DNA from: a virus
Length of the DNA: 25,114 nt
IMG/VR virus record: IMGVR_UViG_3300009170_000029
Span: 1-25,114 of that record
Reading direction: 5' to 3' (one strand)
Part shown: positions 4,782 through 16,179 of the stretch, piece by piece
Layout of the letters: every line of letters begins with the position of its first letter
How positions within the stretch are numbered: position 1 is the first letter of the stretch
The notes under the pieces: model-generated
Seen by the model: only the letters and a program-made list of their open reading frames with translations
Told to the model about the DNA's origin: nothing
Databases searched by the model: none
Program-made: the position numbers and the translations under genes

Positions 4782-4857
4782 GCTGGCGTAGCTCAGTTGG
4801 TAGAGCAACCGCCTTGTAAGCGGTAGGTCGTCAGTTCGAATCCGACCGTCAGCACCA
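4782..4857 (+). tRNA. tRNA-Thr, anticodon TGT
   Basis: Complete 76-nt cloverleaf with encoded CCA. The acceptor GCTGGCG pairs with CGTCAGC (one G-T). D-arm GCTC/GAGC. Anticodon stem ACCGC/GCGGT with loop CTTGTAA, giving anticodon TGT, which reads ACA threonine codons. T-loop TTCGAAT. The T-stem GTCAG/CCGAC has one A-C mismatch. It lies inside the rightward operon between two protein genes and is probably released from the operon transcript by host RNases. Confidence 0.95.
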
Positions 4858-5001: not shown

Positions 5002-6929
5002 TCCTTTATGTCGACTTCGAAACCCGTAGCCGCTGCGACTTGCGCGCTAAGGGCGTCTACAACTACGCGCAGGACGCCAGCACCGACGTGCTGTGTATGT
5101 CCTACGCGTTTGACGATGAGGACGTGCAGACATGGACGCCAGATCAACCTTTTCCTGGACGTATCTTGGCGCATGAGGGCCAGATACGCGCGCACAACGC
5201 CGCTTTCGAGCGGCTTATCTTTTGGTACGTCCTTCAGATCAACTTTCACCCGGAGCAGTTCTATTGCACCGCTGCACAGGCACGCGCTAATTGCTTGCCC
5301 GGCTCGCTTGAGGACGTGGGACGCGCGCTGTCCAGCGTGATGCGTAAGGATCACCGAGGCAGCCAACTGATTCGGCTGCTATCCGTACCCCAGGCCGACG
5401 GATCGTTCCGCCAGGACGCTAAATTGATGGCCGAAATGATCGCCTATTGCGAGCAGGACGTGCTCGCCATGCGTGCCGTCTCCAAAGGTATGCGTGACCT
5501 GAGCGCCGACGAACTTAGTGACTACCAGACCAACGAGCGCATCAACGACCGGGGCGTGTTGGTAGACGTTCCGCTGTGCTTGGCCGCTGTGCGGTATTCC
5601 GAAGCCGAAGTGGAAGAGATCCAGGCGAAGGTAGTCGAAGCGACAGACGGCGAGATCCGCAGTGTGCGCTCACCTAAGATGCGTGAATGGGTACTAGCGC
5701 GGGTAGGCGAGCAGGCGAAGAAGCTCATGTGGACGGGCGAGAAGTATTCAATCGACAAGACCGTCCGGGCGAATTTGCTGACGATTGATAACGTCGAGGA
5801 GGTGCCGCCGCATGTCCAAGAAGTCATTCAGTGTGCAGATGATCTGTGGGCGTCGTCGGTTGCTAAGTTCAGCCGCCTTGCTGCGCTGGCAGATGATGAA
5901 GATCACCGAGTCCGGGGAGCCTTCGTTTTTGCTGGCGGATCAGCGACTGGCCGAGCTAGTAGCTACGGCGCGCAGGTGCATAACTTCACCCGAAAATGCG
6001 CCGCAGAACCTGACGCCGTTCGAGCAAGAATGGTTTCAGGCGGTTCAGTGGTGCCTGAGTTTGGAAAACGGGTTACAGACGTCTTAAAGGCCATGCTGCG
6101 CCCGGCGATCATTCCCGCTAAGGGGAAGGTGTTGGTCGTGGCGGATTGGGCGGGTATCGAGGCGCGGGTGAATCCGTGGGCGTCCAACTGTCGCGCAGGT
6201 ACTGCCAAGCTGGAACTGTTCGAGCGTGGCGAGGACGTTTATAAGGTGAATGCTTCCGCGACGTTCCACGTGCCATATGAGCAGATCGACAAAGAGCAGC
6301 GCCAGATCGGGAAGGTGCAGGAACTCGCCTGTGGATTCGCTGGCGGCGTGGGCGCATTCGCTGCGATGGGCCGCGTCTATGGCGTGCATCTGCCCGAGTC
6401 GGACGCTCGGCGCATGGTCGATGGTTGGCGACGGGCGAATCCGTGGGCTGTACCGTACTGGCAAGATCTGGAAGAAGCCTATACGCGAGCGATGCGAAAC
6501 AAGGGCCACGAGTTCCACGCAGGGCGTGTCGTTTATTTGTTTGACGGACTGCACCTTTGGTATGCACTGCCCTCTGGCCGTGTGTTGTGCTATCCCTTTG
6601 CGCGGAATGAAGCCGAAGGCGTGACCTATGCAAAAGCCGCATGGAAGCCTACGGCAGACGCAAAAGAATGGCCGCGTGCGCGTTTGTGGAAGGGACTGGC
6701 GTGCGAGAATATCACGCAGGCAATTGCGAATGATCTGCTGCGCTATTCGCTCCGACAGGTCGACGCGGTGTTGCATGTGCATGACGAAATTGTTTTAGAA
6801 GTAGATGCAACGGCGGCTGATTCCGCGATGGAACGGCTCGCCGAGATTATGAAAACGCCGCCTGTATGGGCGAAAGAGTTGCCTTTGGATGTAGAAGTAC
6901 ATTCAATGACGCGCTACGGGAAAGGTTGA
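4998..6929 (+). CDS. Family A DNA polymerase with 3'-5' exonuclease, 643 aa
   Basis: Replicative polymerase of the phage Pol I family. Exonuclease domain: Exo I YVDFET (D6, E8); Exo II HNAAFE (N67-F70); Exo III Y150-C-E-Q-D154. Polymerase domain: motif A VVADWAGIEAR with D383 and E388; motif B R435-x3-K439 followed by LACGFAGG, a phage variant of the O-helix; motif C HVHDE at 593-597 with D596. All catalytic acidic residues are present. No 5' nuclease domain, typical of phage versions. The frame could open at 4926, but ATG 4998 overlaps the membrane-peptide stop as ATGA and puts the Exo I motif at the N-terminus as usual. No intein or intron is visible. Confidence 0.96.
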   Translation: MILYVDFETRSRCDLRAKGVYNYAQDASTDVLCMSYAFDDEDVQTWTPDQPFPGRILAHEGQIRAHNAAFERLIFWYVLQINFHPEQFYCTAAQARANCLPGSLEDVGRALSSVMRKDHRGSQLIRLLSVPQADGSFRQDAKLMAEMIAYCEQDVLAMRAVSKGMRDLSADELSDYQTNERINDRGVLVDVPLCLAAVRYSEAEVEEIQAKVVEATDGEIRSVRSPKMREWVLARVGEQAKKLMWTGEKYSIDKTVRANLLTIDNVEEVPPHVQEVIQCADDLWASSVAKFSRLAALADDEDHRVRGAFVFAGGSATGRASSYGAQVHNFTRKCAAEPDAVRARMVSGGSVVPEFGKRVTDVLKAMLRPAIIPAKGKVLVVADWAGIEARVNPWASNCRAGTAKLELFERGEDVYKVNASATFHVPYEQIDKEQRQIGKVQELACGFAGGVGAFAAMGRVYGVHLPESDARRMVDGWRRANPWAVPYWQDLEEAYTRAMRNKGHEFHAGRVVYLFDGLHLWYALPSGRVLCYPFARNEAEGVTYAKAAWKPTADAKEWPRARLWKGLACENITQAIANDLLRYSLRQVDAVLHVHDEIVLEVDATAADSAMERLAEIMKTPPVWAKELPLDVEVHSMTRYGKG

Positions 6930-6931
6930 AC

Positions 6932-7315
6932 ATGGAAATTTGGACTTCAATTCCCGGCTATGAGGGTTTTTACGAAGTAAGTAATTTTGGAAATGTTCGG
7001 TCGCTTACGCGGTCTGTGCCTTATGGCCGTCACCAAGGCATGACGTATAAGGGCAAAGACATTAAACAGTTTGTTTCCAATACTTATTTAAGCGTCAAAC
7101 TTTCGCGTGCCGGTGTCACAAAAACAACTTACACGCATGAATTAGTGTTGTTAGCGTTTGAAGGATATCGTCCGTCGATGGATGAGCGTTGTGAAATTCG
7201 ACATTTGGATGGCAACAAATTCAACAACGCTCTAAGTAATCTTAAATACGGAACGATTAGCGAAAATGCCGCAGACAGAAAGTTACACAATAAGGGGTTG
7301 ATTGCAGTTAAATAA
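6932..7315 (+). CDS. NUMOD4/HNH homing endonuclease, 127 aa
   Basis: Free-standing homing endonuclease. The N-terminal NUMOD4 motif (MEIWTSIPGYEGFYEVSNFG) is followed by a DNA-contact stretch and an HNH nuclease core: THELVLLAFEGY, then CEIRHLDGNKFNN, with conserved H, D and N residues, and LSNLKYGTISEN. It begins 2 nt after the polymerase stop, between polymerase and primase, with little SD. It is visibly more AT-rich than its neighbours, which is usual for mobile HNH genes. It probably cuts a homologous site in phages lacking it (family knowledge). No intron or split gene is associated. Confidence 0.9.
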   Translation: MEIWTSIPGYEGFYEVSNFGNVRSLTRSVPYGRHQGMTYKGKDIKQFVSNTYLSVKLSRAGVTKTTYTHELVLLAFEGYRPSMDERCEIRHLDGNKFNNALSNLKYGTISENAADRKLHNKGLIAVK

Positions 7316-10791: not shown

Positions 10792-11040
10792 TCAACCCCT
10801 GCTCAGTGCGTTGTCGAAAACAAAAACGTATGAGTGATCGGGCAACTGCCCACCCAAAAGAGCGTCGTGATCCGACCAGCCTAACTTCGCCGCCAGCGCT
10901 TCCGCTGCCTTACGGTGGCAGGCCTGCCCGCTTAGTTCGTGCGGGTAATCGATAGTTAGCGAGCCAGCCGCACAAGTCGCCTTGATGCGCGAGCCTTTGG
11001 TGTTGGTGGGGCCAAAGTACTTCGTTTGAATTGCTTGCAT
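10792..11040 (-). CDS. Conserved small phage protein, 82 aa
   Basis: The N-terminus MQAIQTKYFGPTNTKGSRIK is characteristic: the YFGPTNTKGSRIKA motif recurs in unannotated proteins of many proteobacterial phages (recollection). A Gly/Asp segment and a hydrophobic C-terminal strand (HSYVFVFDNALS) follow. SD AGGAG lies 10 nt before ATG 11040. Probably an early protein, judging from its place near the promoter end of the cassette. Biochemical role unknown. Confidence 0.75.
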   Translation of the reverse strand: MQAIQTKYFGPTNTKGSRIKATCAAGSLTIDYPHELSGQACHRKAAEALAAKLGWSDHDALLGGQLPDHSYVFVFDNALSRG

Positions 11041-11099: not shown

Positions 11100-11198
11100 T
11101 TAGAAGTAGAGGAAAGCCATCACAACAACAGAAACACCGGCGAAGGCGACGGAAGCAACAACAGCTGAAATCGCGATCTGTTCAAGTTTGTTAGTCAT
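11100..11198 (-). CDS. Membrane micropeptide, 32 aa
   Basis: Sequence starts MTNKLEQIAISAVVASVAFA and continues GVSVVVMAFLYF: a short polar head, then about 24 hydrophobic residues to the C-terminus, so one transmembrane helix. ATG 11198 has only a weak upstream ACGAG as SD. It is the first gene after the leftward promoter (11232-11260) and would be the most strongly transcribed of the cassette. Similar in size and layout to the peptide at 10467-10565 but not obviously related in sequence. Confidence 0.55.
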   Translation of the reverse strand: MTNKLEQIAISAVVASVAFAGVSVVVMAFLYF

Positions 11199-11231: not shown

Positions 11232-11260
11232 AGTGTAAGACCTTTCCGTACATCATGCAA
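11232..11260 (-). promoter_or_regulatory. Leftward sigma70-like promoter of the small-gene cassette
   Basis: Read leftward: -35 TTGCAT (11260-11255), a 17-bp spacer, -10 TACACT (11237-11232). RNA would start near 11225, about 27 nt before the first micropeptide. It lies at the edge of the repeat region; the nearest CACAT motif is about 37 bp upstream of it. Confidence 0.6.
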
Positions 11261-11474
11261 GGGATATTTGAACAAATTCTTCTCATAGTGCTCATTTGAC
11301 ACATCAAAAGAGGTGGCAAATATTGCACATGTGGGGGATGTGTCGTGATGAGTTGCGCATGAGTCGCGATTTTGGGGGTGACGGCACATGGCTAAGTATC
11401 TGAAATTTAACGGTTTCTGGCCCTTATGTGTCAAATGTGTTCTTTTAGTTAGTTAGTCAGAAAAATAATAGAAG

Positions 11475-11494
11475 TACTGTATATATATACAGTA
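11475..11494. promoter_or_regulatory. Perfect LexA (SOS) box
   Basis: The 20-bp palindrome TACTG(TA)5CAGTA is identical to the published E. coli LexA consensus and keeps the CTGT-N8-ACAG core used in beta- and gammaproteobacteria. Immediately to the right is an extended -10-like TGTTATATA (11499-11507). To the left, on the other strand, is TATTAT. LexA bound here would cover either promoter. Confidence 0.75.
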
Positions 11495-11498
11495 GTAG

Positions 11499-11507
11499 TG
11501 TTATATA
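11499..11507 (+). promoter_or_regulatory. Possible extended -10 promoter beside the LexA box
   Basis: TG-T-TATATA begins 5 bp after the palindrome, with no clear -35 because that position is inside the box. A transcript would start near 11514 and run rightward through a region without genes towards terminase. Confidence 0.35.
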
Positions 11508-11937
11508 GCTGGACCGACGACGAAAAGTGACACATTTGACACATCGGGGCGTATTTGGCCGCGTAATCAATTAGTTACGATGTGCCGAACGGTGACACAT
11601 GAGTGACGTATGCAATGACACATCGCCCGCGCACCCACCAACCCCCGCGCATTTAGCCCTCCCCATGTGCCTTATGTGTCTTTTGTTTGCATGGCACATA
11701 TGACACATAGACCTTGCGCCCTAGCGCGACTGCAAACCGACCGCGCAAACGGCACATTGGCACATGTGCATTCTCAGTCATGCAAACAAATGGCACATCT
11801 TGCACATCAGCCGTTAGCCGCCAGCCGCCAGCGCACGCCGTCAGCTCGATGCAGTTTGCAGGCTGCGCAATTGTGCATTGTGCAAACAGGCCCCCGGGTA
11901 GGGCCGGCGCAGGTCGTGGTCAGTTATGGGAGGGGCC

Positions 11938-11969
11938 ACAAAAATTTTGATGTTAGATTGAAAACCGTA
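11938..11969 (+). repeat. 32-bp AT-rich repeat, copy 1
   Basis: ACAAAAATTTTGATGTTA followed by GATTGAAAACCGTA. Matches copy 2 (11984-12015) at 29 of 32 positions; start-to-start distance 46 bp. It contains an A5T4 tract and a -35-like TTGAAA (11958-11963) that pairs with TACACA (11981-11986) at 17-bp spacing. Confidence 0.75.
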
Positions 11970-11983
11970 AAACTTACTGTTAC

Positions 11984-12015
11984 ACAAAAATTTTGATGTT
12001 AAATTGACAACTGTA
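11984..12015 (+). repeat. 32-bp AT-rich repeat, copy 2
   Basis: Second copy, with perfect -35 TTGACA (12004-12009), 17-bp spacer and -10 TACAAA (12027-12032). A third, shorter copy (ACAAAAATTTTGAT, 12028-12041) follows 44 bp downstream, so A5T4 tracts recur about every 45 bp. Confidence 0.75.
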
Positions 12016-12027
12016 CGGCTATCCTTT

Positions 12028-12041
12028 ACAAAAATTTTGAT
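12028..12041 (+). repeat. AT-rich repeat, short copy 3
   Basis: ACAAAAATTTTGAT, identical to the first 14 bases of copies 1 and 2, then diverging. A -10-like TACAAT follows at 12063-12068, but spacing from TTGATA (12037) is 20 bp, too long for a standard promoter. Confidence 0.65.
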
Positions 12042-12069
12042 AAAAGTTATATGGCAATCCCTTACAATC

Positions 12070-12104: not shown

Positions 12105-12500
12105 ATGATGCTATCTATTCCAAATTCGACGCGACAACTGCGCGCAACCGAACAGCGATTGCAGGCGATCTATGACGCTGCCGCACTAGGACTCAAAGGC
12201 GACGCATTGGCCCTGGCTGCTGGCATGCTGCCTACTGAATACCGGCAGTTGTGCCAGATGGATCCGATTGCGGAAACAGCCGCGCTAAAGGGCAAAGCCG
12301 ACGCTGAAGTGCGATTGGCTAAGGTGATGCACAACGCAGCAATGGAGGGCGACACTAAAGCGGCGCTGGCGATCCTTCAGAACCGCCACGATTGGACACC
12401 CAAGCAAGAGATCAACGTGGATGTGCATACGCGCATCTCGATCACGCAAGCGCTTCAAGCCGCGCATGAGCGCGTCATTGAAGGTGAGGTTGTACGGTAA
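12105..12500 (+). CDS. Terminase small subunit, 131 aa
   Basis: Probable DNA-recognition subunit of the packaging motor. The N-terminal region (YDAAALGLKGDALALAAGML, then PTEYRQL) reads as a helix-turn-helix of the kind found in small terminases. The middle contains an AEVRLAKVMHNAAMEGDTKA helix and the end a short beta/helix tail used for oligomer contacts (family knowledge). Its stop overlaps the TerL start as TAATG. The frame opens at 12051, but that region carries promoter-like sequence; ATG 12105 (or 12108) gives a normal length. No SD is seen at either. Confidence 0.85.
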   Translation: MMLSIPNSTRQLRATEQRLQAIYDAAALGLKGDALALAAGMLPTEYRQLCQMDPIAETAALKGKADAEVRLAKVMHNAAMEGDTKAALAILQNRHDWTPKQEINVDVHTRISITQALQAAHERVIEGEVVR

Positions 12501-14023
12501 TGCAAAAGCCCCTGTATTCGTCTGACGAAGAAATGATGCTGATGACGCGGCTCTGGTCGCCGAAGGTCAAAGACGACCCGGAAGCGTTTGTGCTGTTCTG
12601 CTTTCCGTGGGGGCAGCCGAACACGCCTTTGGCTAAGTTCAGCGGCCCGCGCAAGTGGCAACGGGAGGTCTTAAGATCCATCGGCGATCACATCAAGGCG
12701 AACGACGGCAAGTTGCAGATGGACACCCTGCGGCAGGCGGTCTCTTCAGGGCGCGGTATCGGTAAGTCAGCGTTAGTCAGTTGGTTGATCCTGTGGATGA
12801 TGACGACGCGCATCGGCGCGACGGTTATCGTCAGCGCCAACAGTGAGGCGCAGCTCCGCAGCGTCACTTGGGGGGAGCTGTCCAAGTGGGCGGCGATGGC
12901 GATCAACGCGCACTGGTGGGAGATCTCGGCGACCAAGCTGCTGCCCGCGCAATGGATCACCGAACTGGTCGAGCGCGATCTGAAGAAGGGCGCACGCTAC
13001 TGGGCGGCGGAGGGCAAGCTGTGGTCGGAAGAGAACCCGGACAGCTACGCCGGGGTGCATAACCACGACGGCATGATGTTGATCTTCGACGAGGCTTCCG
13101 GCATACCGGACGCAATCTGGTCGGTGGGCGCGGGGTTCTTCACCGAGAACATTCTGGATCGGTACTGGTTCGCGTTTAGTAACCCGCGACGCAACACGGG
13201 GTACTTCTTTGAATGCTTCAACTCGAAACGTAACTTCTGGAAGACGCGCAATATTGATGCACGTACGGTAGAAGGTACGGACATACAAGTGTATGAGCAG
13301 ATCATCGCGGAGTATGGCGAGGATTCCAGCCAAGCGCGGATTGAAGTGTATGGCGAGTTCCCCAGCGCGGGTGAGGATCAGTTTATCTCGCCGGTACTGG
13401 TTGATGAGGCGCAAGCGCGGCCACGGTATCAGGACACCAGCGCGCCGATTATCGTAGGGGTGGACCCGGCGCGCAGCGGCGCGGACTCAACGGTGATACT
13501 GGCGCGGCAGGGACGGGACATTATCTCGATCAAACGCTATCAGGGTGAGGACACCATGACGATTGTGGGTCGGGTAATCGAGGCGATTGAGGAATTCCGA
13601 CCTGCGCTGACGGTGATCGACGAAGGTGGGCTGGGTTACGGCATTCTGGATCGTCTGACTGAGCAACGGTATAAGGTCAGAGGCGTCAATTTCGGCTGGA
13701 AGTCGTCCAAACCTATTATGTGGGGCAATCGGCGGGCGGAAATGTGGGGTGCGATGCGCGAATGGCTGAGAACTGCTAGTATTCCCACGGATCGGCAGTT
13801 AAAATCAGACCTTATTGGCCCCACCAAGAAGCCTGATTCCAAAGGGACTATCTTTTTGGAAGGCAAAAAGGAGATGAAAGCCCGAGGGCTGGCTTCTCCT
13901 GATGCGGCAGATGCGTTGGCGGTGACGTTTGCTTTCCCGGTGGCGCATAAAGAGTATGCGGATAAGAATACACCGCGTACTTATCAAGGTAACAGCGTTA
14001 TCAATTCATGGATGGGCGCTTAA
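12500..14023 (+). CDS. Terminase large subunit, 507 aa
   Basis: ATP-driven packaging motor and headful or site-specific nuclease. ATPase domain: Walker A GRGIGKS (84-90), adenine-contact WQREV upstream, Walker B MMLIFDEAS with D197-E198. RNase-H-like nuclease domain: VGVDPARSGADST (D322), TVIDEGGLGYG (D374), SPDAADALAVTF (D468, D471), the expected set of metal-binding acids. Length is normal. The start overlaps the TerS stop (TAATG), and its own stop overlaps the portal start in the same way, so the three are translationally coupled. Confidence 0.96.
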   Translation: MQKPLYSSDEEMMLMTRLWSPKVKDDPEAFVLFCFPWGQPNTPLAKFSGPRKWQREVLRSIGDHIKANDGKLQMDTLRQAVSSGRGIGKSALVSWLILWMMTTRIGATVIVSANSEAQLRSVTWGELSKWAAMAINAHWWEISATKLLPAQWITELVERDLKKGARYWAAEGKLWSEENPDSYAGVHNHDGMMLIFDEASGIPDAIWSVGAGFFTENILDRYWFAFSNPRRNTGYFFECFNSKRNFWKTRNIDARTVEGTDIQVYEQIIAEYGEDSSQARIEVYGEFPSAGEDQFISPVLVDEAQARPRYQDTSAPIIVGVDPARSGADSTVILARQGRDIISIKRYQGEDTMTIVGRVIEAIEEFRPALTVIDEGGLGYGILDRLTEQRYKVRGVNFGWKSSKPIMWGNRRAEMWGAMREWLRTASIPTDRQLKSDLIGPTKKPDSKGTIFLEGKKEMKARGLASPDAADALAVTFAFPVAHKEYADKNTPRTYQGNSVINSWMGA

Positions 14024-16179
14024 TGGCGAAGCAAGACAAAGAACTGCTCTCAACTGCCCGATCCAGGCTCAATCTGGCGATTTCGGCGTATTCCGAAAGC
14101 CGCGAAGATGAACTGGACGATCTGCGGTTCTTCGCAGGCTCGCCGGATAACCACTGGCAGTGGCCTGCGGACGTTCTAGCGACCCGTGGTGCGGTTCAAG
14201 GGCAGACGATCAACGCACGCCCTTGCCTCACCATCAACAAGCTGCCACAGCACGTTAAACAGGTTACGAATGACCAGCGCCAGAACCGCCCTGCGGGAAA
14301 AGTCATTCCTGCTGACGACAAAGCCGACATTGAAGTCGCTGAAATCTTCGACGGCATCGTCCGGCACATTGAGTACATCTCCGACGCCGATGTTGCTTAT
14401 GACACCGCGTGCGAGAATCAAGTTGCGTATGGCGAAGGCTACATCCGTATCCTGACGGAATACTGCGACGAGAACACGTTTGACCAAGACATTAAGATCG
14501 GGCGCGTGCGAAACAGTTTCTCGGTCTATATGGACCCAATGATTCAAGACCCCTGCGGCGCGGACGCCAAGTGGTGTTTTATCACCGAGGACATTACCAA
14601 AGAAGATTACGAGCGCATGTTCCCGGATGCTTCGCCGGTGACAACGCTGCAACAGATGGGCGTGGGCGATCAGTCGATCAACCAGTGGCTGAACGAGAAC
14701 ACCATTCGGATTGCCGAATACTTCTACATTGATCACGAACCTGCCACGCTGAACATGTACCGCGACGGCATGACCGCCTTTGAAGGTACGCCTGAAGATA
14801 AGCAGATGAAGGCGATGGGCATGAAGCCTATCAAGACTCGCCGTGTGGATCGCCAGAAGGTCAAATGGTGCAAGATCAACGGCTACGAAGTGCTGGAAGA
14901 GCAAGAATGGGCTGGCAAGTACATCCCGGTGGTGAAGGTTGTAGGCAACGAATTTGAAGTAGATGGTCGCATCTATATGTCCGGCCTTGTGCGCAACGCC
15001 AAGGACGCGCAGCGTATGTACAACTATTGGGTGAGCCAAGAAGCCGAAATGCTGGCGCTGGCACCCAAGGCACCGTTCATTGGTTACGGCGGTCAGTTTG
15101 AAGGCTACGAACAGCAATGGAAAACGGCTAACACGCAGAATTGGCCCTATCTGGAAGTCAATCCTGACGTCACCGACGGCCAAGGCCAGACTCTGCCGCT
15201 GCCGCAGCGTGCCATGCCGCCGATGGCCCAAACAGGCTTGATTCAAGCCAAAATGGGCGCGTCTGAGGACATCAAATCGACGACTGGACAGTATGACGCC
15301 AGCCTTGGCATGATGGGCAACGAACGCTCTGGCCGGGCTATTCTGGCGCGTGAGAAGCAAGGCGATACGGGTACTTATCACTACGTCGATAATCTGGCCC
15401 GCGCCGTGCGTCATGTAACCCGTCAGATCGTGGATATGATCCCTAAGATCTACGATACGCAGCGAATTGCACGCATCATCGGCATGGACGGCACAACCGA
15501 TATGGCCTCCATTGACCCGACTCAGCAAGAGCCGGTCAAGAAGATCGTGGATGAGACCGGCGTTGTGCTAAAGAAGATCTACAACCCCGGCATCGGCAAG
15601 TACGACGTGTGCGTGACCACTGGCCCCAGCTACATGACCAAGCGTCAGGAAGCTATGGACGCCATGAGTCAGATTCTGCAAGGTAGCCCGCAACTTTGGG
15701 CTGTGGCTGGCGATCTGTTCGTCAAGAACATGGATTGGCCGGGTGCAGATGAACTTGCAGCACGTCTCAAGAAAACAATTGACCCGAAGTTGCTGGAAGA
15801 TGGCGACAAATCGCCGGAGTTGCAGGCCGCCGAACAGCAAATGCAGGCGATGGGTCAAGAACTTGATCAACTGCACCAGATGCTGCAAAACGTCAGCAAG
15901 TCGATGGAAATGCGCGACATTGAAATCAAAGAGTTTGATTCTCAGGTCAAAGCATACCAAGCCGAAACGCAACGTATCAGCGCGGTTCAAGCCAGCATGT
16001 CACCAGAGCAGATTCAGGATATTGTCATGGGCACCGTACATGGCATGATTACTTCGGGTGATTTGATGGCTGAGATGCCGGGACAAGATCTGCCGGGCGA
16101 AGAGATGCAAGATATGGGGCAACAACCTCAAGAAATGATGCCTGAGCAGGCACCGCAACCAATGGAAGGAATGCAATGA
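14023..16179 (+). CDS. Portal protein, P22 gp1-like, 718 aa
   Basis: Dodecameric ring at one capsid vertex through which DNA enters and leaves. The protein is P22-portal-like in length (P22 gp1 is 725 aa) and in sequence: an early LDDLRFFAGSPDNHWQWP segment, the TINKLPQHVKQVTNDQRQNR stretch, and a late helical region with ERSGRAI. The C-terminal 120 residues are rich in Gln and Met with long helices, which could form the barrel seen in P22 (inference). The frame opens at 14008; ATG 14023 overlaps the TerL stop and is preferred. Confidence 0.94.
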   Translation: MAKQDKELLSTARSRLNLAISAYSESREDELDDLRFFAGSPDNHWQWPADVLATRGAVQGQTINARPCLTINKLPQHVKQVTNDQRQNRPAGKVIPADDKADIEVAEIFDGIVRHIEYISDADVAYDTACENQVAYGEGYIRILTEYCDENTFDQDIKIGRVRNSFSVYMDPMIQDPCGADAKWCFITEDITKEDYERMFPDASPVTTLQQMGVGDQSINQWLNENTIRIAEYFYIDHEPATLNMYRDGMTAFEGTPEDKQMKAMGMKPIKTRRVDRQKVKWCKINGYEVLEEQEWAGKYIPVVKVVGNEFEVDGRIYMSGLVRNAKDAQRMYNYWVSQEAEMLALAPKAPFIGYGGQFEGYEQQWKTANTQNWPYLEVNPDVTDGQGQTLPLPQRAMPPMAQTGLIQAKMGASEDIKSTTGQYDASLGMMGNERSGRAILAREKQGDTGTYHYVDNLARAVRHVTRQIVDMIPKIYDTQRIARIIGMDGTTDMASIDPTQQEPVKKIVDETGVVLKKIYNPGIGKYDVCVTTGPSYMTKRQEAMDAMSQILQGSPQLWAVAGDLFVKNMDWPGADELAARLKKTIDPKLLEDGDKSPELQAAEQQMQAMGQELDQLHQMLQNVSKSMEMRDIEIKEFDSQVKAYQAETQRISAVQASMSPEQIQDIVMGTVHGMITSGDLMAEMPGQDLPGEEMQDMGQQPQEMMPEQAPQPMEGMQ

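Follow-up and report, generated by a model that had tools for sequence, protein, structure and literature searches.

Direct control of phage genes by the host SOS repressor LexA is, to our knowledge, known mainly from temperate phages. The rstA promoter of CTXphi is acted on by the phage repressor RstR and by host LexA, and tum of phage 186 and the antirepressors of N15 and the Gifsy phages are under LexA, the antirepressor countering the phage repressor. In the temperate Bacillus tectivirus GIL01, promoter P1 is governed by host LexA, requires the phage protein gp7, and carries two adjacent LexA sites (PMC4551915). Here, we describe a consensus LexA box in the central control region of an environmental phage and its recurrence among relatives, which suggest that the virus probably reads the DNA-damage state of its host at this region.

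The window, i.e., the whole stretch of 25,114 bases analyzed, is the complete IMG/VR record IMGVR_UViG_3300009170_000029, classed as linear. It is probably a fragment of a phage genome and lacks about one third of what such a genome would contain. It encodes an SNF2-type helicase, a DUF2800 protein, a family A DNA polymerase, a DUF5906 primase, and a NUMOD4-HNH protein; from 12.1 kb rightward, comparison with annotated relatives places the small and large terminases and P22-like portal, coat, and stabilization proteins. The NUMOD4-HNH gene (6866-7315), which resembles a homing endonuclease gene, sits between those for the DNA polymerase and the primase, and a tRNA-Thr (tgt) lies at 4782-4857 among the replication genes. 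The terS reading frame opens at 12051; we picked 12105 as its start since the alignment with the relatives L233 and L005 holds from there. The named relatives are DSL-LC05 (72% in TerL) and two Manatee Spring genomes. A blastn search of the control region against the named phages gave no match, and the single match of an Rfam scan (E 0.49), far under the gathering score, was dismissed as chance. The features of the region are collected in Table 1.

Table 1. Features in and around the central control region of the window
Feature	Position	Strand	Remark
82-aa leftward gene, phrog_3199	10792..11040	-	Function unknown
32-aa hydrophobic ORF	11100..11198	-	First leftward ORF of the window
Promoter-like TTGCAT-17-TACACT	11232..11260	-	Leftward, apart from the box; by eye; partly conserved in L233 and L005
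Array of 16 words G(A/G)CACAT or complement	11298..11798	no strand	Surrounds the box
Left inverted pair of 9-nt words ATGTGTCAAATGTGT	11426..11440	+	
Perfect LexA (SOS) box TACTGTATATATATACAGTA	11475..11494	no strand	20/20 positions against the consensus
TATATA, -10-like	11502..11507	+	Conserved in L233 and L005; without promoter-scan match
Right inverted pair of words ACACATTTGACACAT	11530..11544	+	Mirrors 11426-11440 across the box
Three copies of ACAAAAATTTTGAT	11938..12041	+	Ahead of terS
Small terminase gene (terS)	12105..12500	+	Annotation of relatives
Large terminase gene (TerL)	12500..14023	+	Query for finding relatives

A preliminary description of this DNA had reported a LexA box identical to the consensus at all 20 positions, and the sequence at 11475-11494 agrees with it exactly, with 0 mismatches. 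The box is a CTGT-N8-ACAG palindrome with an AT-rich center, as expected of a LexA operator of beta- and gammaproteobacteria, and no other site in the 25,114 bases matches with 3 or fewer mismatches; none of 100 dinucleotide shuffles of the window contained such a match. The full 20-mer is far beyond chance. The core CTGT-N8-ACAG occurs once in the window and at least once in 28 of the 100 shuffles, so that the core alone is not significant. The description had also placed the box within a motif array, which is correct, and beside an extended -10-like sequence, which stands in part: TGTTATATA is present at 11499-11507 and TATATAG is kept when L233 and L005 are aligned to it, but the spacing of the TG varies, and a sigma-70 promoter scan found no site at the box or the -10-like element.

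Relatives were pooled from three terminase scans, one word scan, one box scan, one bacterial-genome scan, and three named phages, giving 189 loci with TerL and, among their upstream regions, 119 distinct ones 1000 nt or longer. Leaving out three loci brought in by the box scan, and including the window itself and L233 (found via the word scan), both 9-base arms were perfect in 5 of 116 distinct regions and had at most 2 mismatches in 9 of them; 40 shuffled palindromes averaged 0.0 and 0.025. In the first terminase scan (80 relatives plus the window, 81 records), TACTGT-N8-ACAGTA occurred 5 times in the control region, taken as -1300 to -600 before TerL (44,861 bp), versus 0 times in the remaining 797,285 bp; the looser CTGT-N8-ACAG occurred 6 times in each. 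In the box scan, a TerS relative was present on 6 of 120 stretches among the matches listed (L089, L094, L101, L118, L125, and L197), two of them on known contigs (L089 on that of L040 and L125 on that of L051).

Most relatives lack the box. In a TerL tree with 117 rows, 11 of which have the box, the box label needs 6 changes versus 10.7 in shuffles, and at least 4 are forced by starred branches (two box-ascertained loci included), which indicates that the box phages lie in separate clades, through gain, loss, or exchange. The box is labile among close relatives; L005 (96% in TerL) has TACTGTGTATACGTATAGTA instead, with one core mismatch, L072 has lost the right flank, and L047, whose TerL is identical to that of the box phage L046, has ATTTCACAATGTGAAAT at the box position. 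The inner bases vary among box phages (e.g., GATA, GCTA, GAAT, and GCCG) while the arms are unchanged. L046 and L295 retain TACTGTA...TACAGTA with broken inner pairs, a pattern that fits protein contacts and not a hairpin. The words of the array vary from phage to phage but the box is constant, which points to a host factor. The first leftward ORF also differs among box phages, being the 32-aa hydrophobic ORF in the window (its sole occurrence among the records compared), 196 aa in L233, and 68 aa in L040, so that there is no conserved target gene on the left side; a TisB-like SOS peptide was dropped as a target for the same reason. Elsewhere, L249 and L250 have a cluster of CTGT/ACAG half-sites approximately 650 to 750 nt before TerL, with repeats approximately 40 nt apart and two CTGT-N8-ACAG each, which may be a LexA region with several sites away from the central promoter. 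Rhodoferax phage P26218 is without CTGT-N8-ACAG; the paper on DSL-LC05 links the two phages (PMC10611076).

The array lies in the intergenic stretch that separates the leftward small genes from terS, with one stray copy of the word at 14363. The box is flanked by two tandem word pairs that are inverted relative to each other, with a dyad axis 0.5 nt from the box center. The offset is likewise 0.5 in L005 and L094, and it is 1.5 in L233, 8.5 to 9 in L040, L042, and L072, and 16 in L118; no inverted word pair about the box was obtained in L292, L101, L295, and L046. Each phage has its own word of approximately 9 nt in tandem and inverted pairs, and a repeat spacing of 9 is common in many relatives; primase C-termini and TerS N-termini were listed for 33 loci as candidates for a word-binding, co-varying protein. 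Of the 53 loci that have a usable inverted word pair, 22 without a box have a TATA-rich core (TATATATAGG and similar) that starts 24 to 42 nt after the left word; since the core patterns were picked after viewing the sequences, this comparison describes the loci and does not serve as a test. The box starts 30 to 35 nt after the left word pair, and 20 of the 53 loci have neither core nor box. The start at 35 in L118 was set by eye, the script having picked an earlier TACTGT, and L048, L207, and L287, which match TACTGT elsewhere, were not counted as box phages. The box thus holds the position of the TATA-rich core of box-less loci, as if an operator had been placed on the core of a conserved promoter-like element. 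TATATATAGG reads as a -10 followed by a purine start, which suggests rightward firing; a hexamer histogram does not decide the direction.

Relatives from the bacterial collection are contigs binned with beta- and gammaproteobacteria, including Rhodoferax, and a few other bins. Those binned with Rhodoferax have 68 to 69% TerL identity to the window and are the basis for Rhodoferax as the candidate host, a host that we infer. We searched 80 genomes of the family of the Rhodoferax bin G025, which holds phage relatives, with TACTGTATANNNNTACAGTA and found 14 loci in 11 genomes, versus 0 for the reversed control; in a first look at five bins holding relatives, one had the pattern. Eight of the 14 loci adjoin SOS-type genes: imuA at two (L325 and L327), a PA0069-family radical SAM gene at four (L329, L331, L333, and L334), an error-prone DNA polymerase gene, dnaE2, at one (L336, a truncated match under the cut-off of the model), and a gene for an ImuB-type IMS protein at one (L338). 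The PA0069-type genes are presumably members of SOS regulons. No SOS neighbor was recognizable at the other six loci. Since the pattern lies beside SOS genes in the host family, binding of the box by host LexA is very likely. The LexA operator reading of the preliminary description is thus well supported at the sequence level, by the same place in separate lineages, the kept arms, and the same pattern before SOS genes of candidate hosts.

We therefore favor, as the fairly probable reading, a host LexA operator on the core of a central promoter-like element, which would repress a promoter or origin region until SOS induction. That several relatives, though different in other respects, have this site at the corresponding position is the reason to think that the virus probably reads host DNA damage. 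LexA binding at this site, the resulting repression, rightward firing towards terS, and relief by SOS are steps that we infer. In an undamaged cell, LexA on the box would block the central promoter or, if the AT-rich center is an origin, the melting of that same center; RecA-driven cleavage of LexA would then open the promoter, which would fire rightward, towards terS.

More tentatively, the shared central promoter, flanked by inverted phage-specific words, might have at its core a slot in which operators of host stress regulators can be exchanged. Its occupants include the LexA box in several lineages, a Fur-type site in L017, and the palindrome TTTCAYAATGTGAAA in the divergent phages L028, L047, and L208. 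In L017, ATGAGAATGATTCTCAT, which we take to match the Fur operator, directly follows the TATA-rich core. The Fur-like GANAATNATTNTC is present in 4 of the 119 regions and at the central promoter only in L017; in L008, L016, and L307 the site is at the array's right end. TGAGAATGATTCTCA has 6 sites in 5 of the 80 host-family genomes, the best-matching neighbors being two FeoB, two solute-binding proteins, one TonB plug, and one short-chain dehydrogenase. TTTCAYAATGTGAAA is found in 1 of the 80 genomes, where the match is to L208, a phage contig. Given a single Fur case and a single palindrome of an unnamed regulator, the slot is a lead and not a finding; a brief literature search for Fur or LexA slots in phage promoters yielded no paper on the subject. 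If this holds, strictly lytic-looking phages would gate their development by the physiological state of the host and swap sensors via small local changes.

The palindrome could instead serve as operator for a regulator encoded by the phage, a repressor or activator with LexA-like recognition, host LexA being uninvolved, which we regard as unlikely. The TTTCAYAATGTGAAA palindrome at the same spot, absent from the 80 host-family genomes apart from the phage contig L208, indicates that some palindromes there may serve phage proteins. L118 encodes one helix-turn-helix (winged-helix) protein, recognized among ten proteins scanned and private to this phage; as a general binder of the box it was rejected, being present in 1 of 27 records and absent from the other box phages. 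Against a phage regulator are further the lack of a self-cleaving S24 repressor in all 21 records, several of them fragments, the failure to recognize a DNA-binding regulator among the small genes of the window, and the constancy of a box that equals the host SOS site across phages with differing words.

It is also quite unlikely that the center is a replication origin at which the likeness to LexA is incidental, the inverted words being initiator sites and the TA-rich palindrome an unwinding or cruciform element. The symmetry of the inverted words about the AT-rich center, the strong single-strand fold of 11415-11560 (z -6.6, mainly via the inverted word pairs), and the DUF5906 primase encoded nearby agree with it. 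However, L046 and L295 break the inner pairs but keep the LexA contact bases, matched shuffled palindromes were not found, and GC skew in 1-kb bins has no clear switch at the box. An origin and a LexA operator at the same center do not exclude each other.

The temperate or plasmid-like state that the preliminary description had hinted at is not supported by gene content, the partition and repressor genes that it proposed to look for included. A tyrosine integrase is present in 1 of 21 records (MW202898 only) and not in the window, itself a fragment; the ParA partition ATPase, a phage-plasmid trait, is in none of the 21, several of them fragments, as is true of the S24 repressor. The L118 record, which has the box, is 37,980 bp long with end genes that adjoin as if circularly permuted, and is without integrase, S24 repressor, and ParA. 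The contig of L118 (L320, 5744-6013) encodes, at the distal end of the group of small leftward genes, an 89-aa protein with a match to the anti-CRISPR AcrF31 (E 7.4e-8), so that the leftward genes may be anti-defense genes. That host LexA serves as lysogeny repressor of a temperate or plasmid-like phage, as in GIL01 (PMC4551915), is most improbable, for although a perfect LexA site in the central promoter, the want of an S24 repressor, and that precedent speak for it, integrase and ParA are rare or absent in the records above, DSL-LC05 is predicted virulent by software according to its paper (PMC10611076), and a box easily lost between close relatives is unexpected for a sole lysogeny switch. 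A carrier state like that of GIL01 is conceivable but lacks support, and a lytic phage reading host DNA damage is the simplest view.

If the LexA reading is true, a LexA operator that recurs over the core of the central promoter in phages without a recognizable repressor or integrase, and that is gained or lost among close relatives, would mean that apparently lytic environmental phages condition their development on host DNA damage. The damage-sensing reading is directly testable with L046 and L047, which have identical large terminases, the one with and the other without the box.

As in phage 186, N15, and the Gifsy phages, a LexA box is predicted here to couple a phage gene to DNA damage; unlike in those phages, neither an antirepressor nor a phage repressor was recognized in the window phage. 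CTXphi likewise has host LexA at a phage promoter, as predicted here, but it is a filamentous integrated phage with its own repressor. DSL-LC05 (OR003940) and the IMG/VR relatives belong to the same TerL family as the window; DSL-LC05, unlike the window, has no CTGT-N8-ACAG in the 26,286 bp examined and has a gene annotated as repressor protein C. With GIL01 (PMC4551915), our locus would share a host LexA operator, here predicted, directly in a phage promoter; unlike GIL01, it shows no sign of lysogeny and has one perfect site, in a tailed podovirus-like phage.
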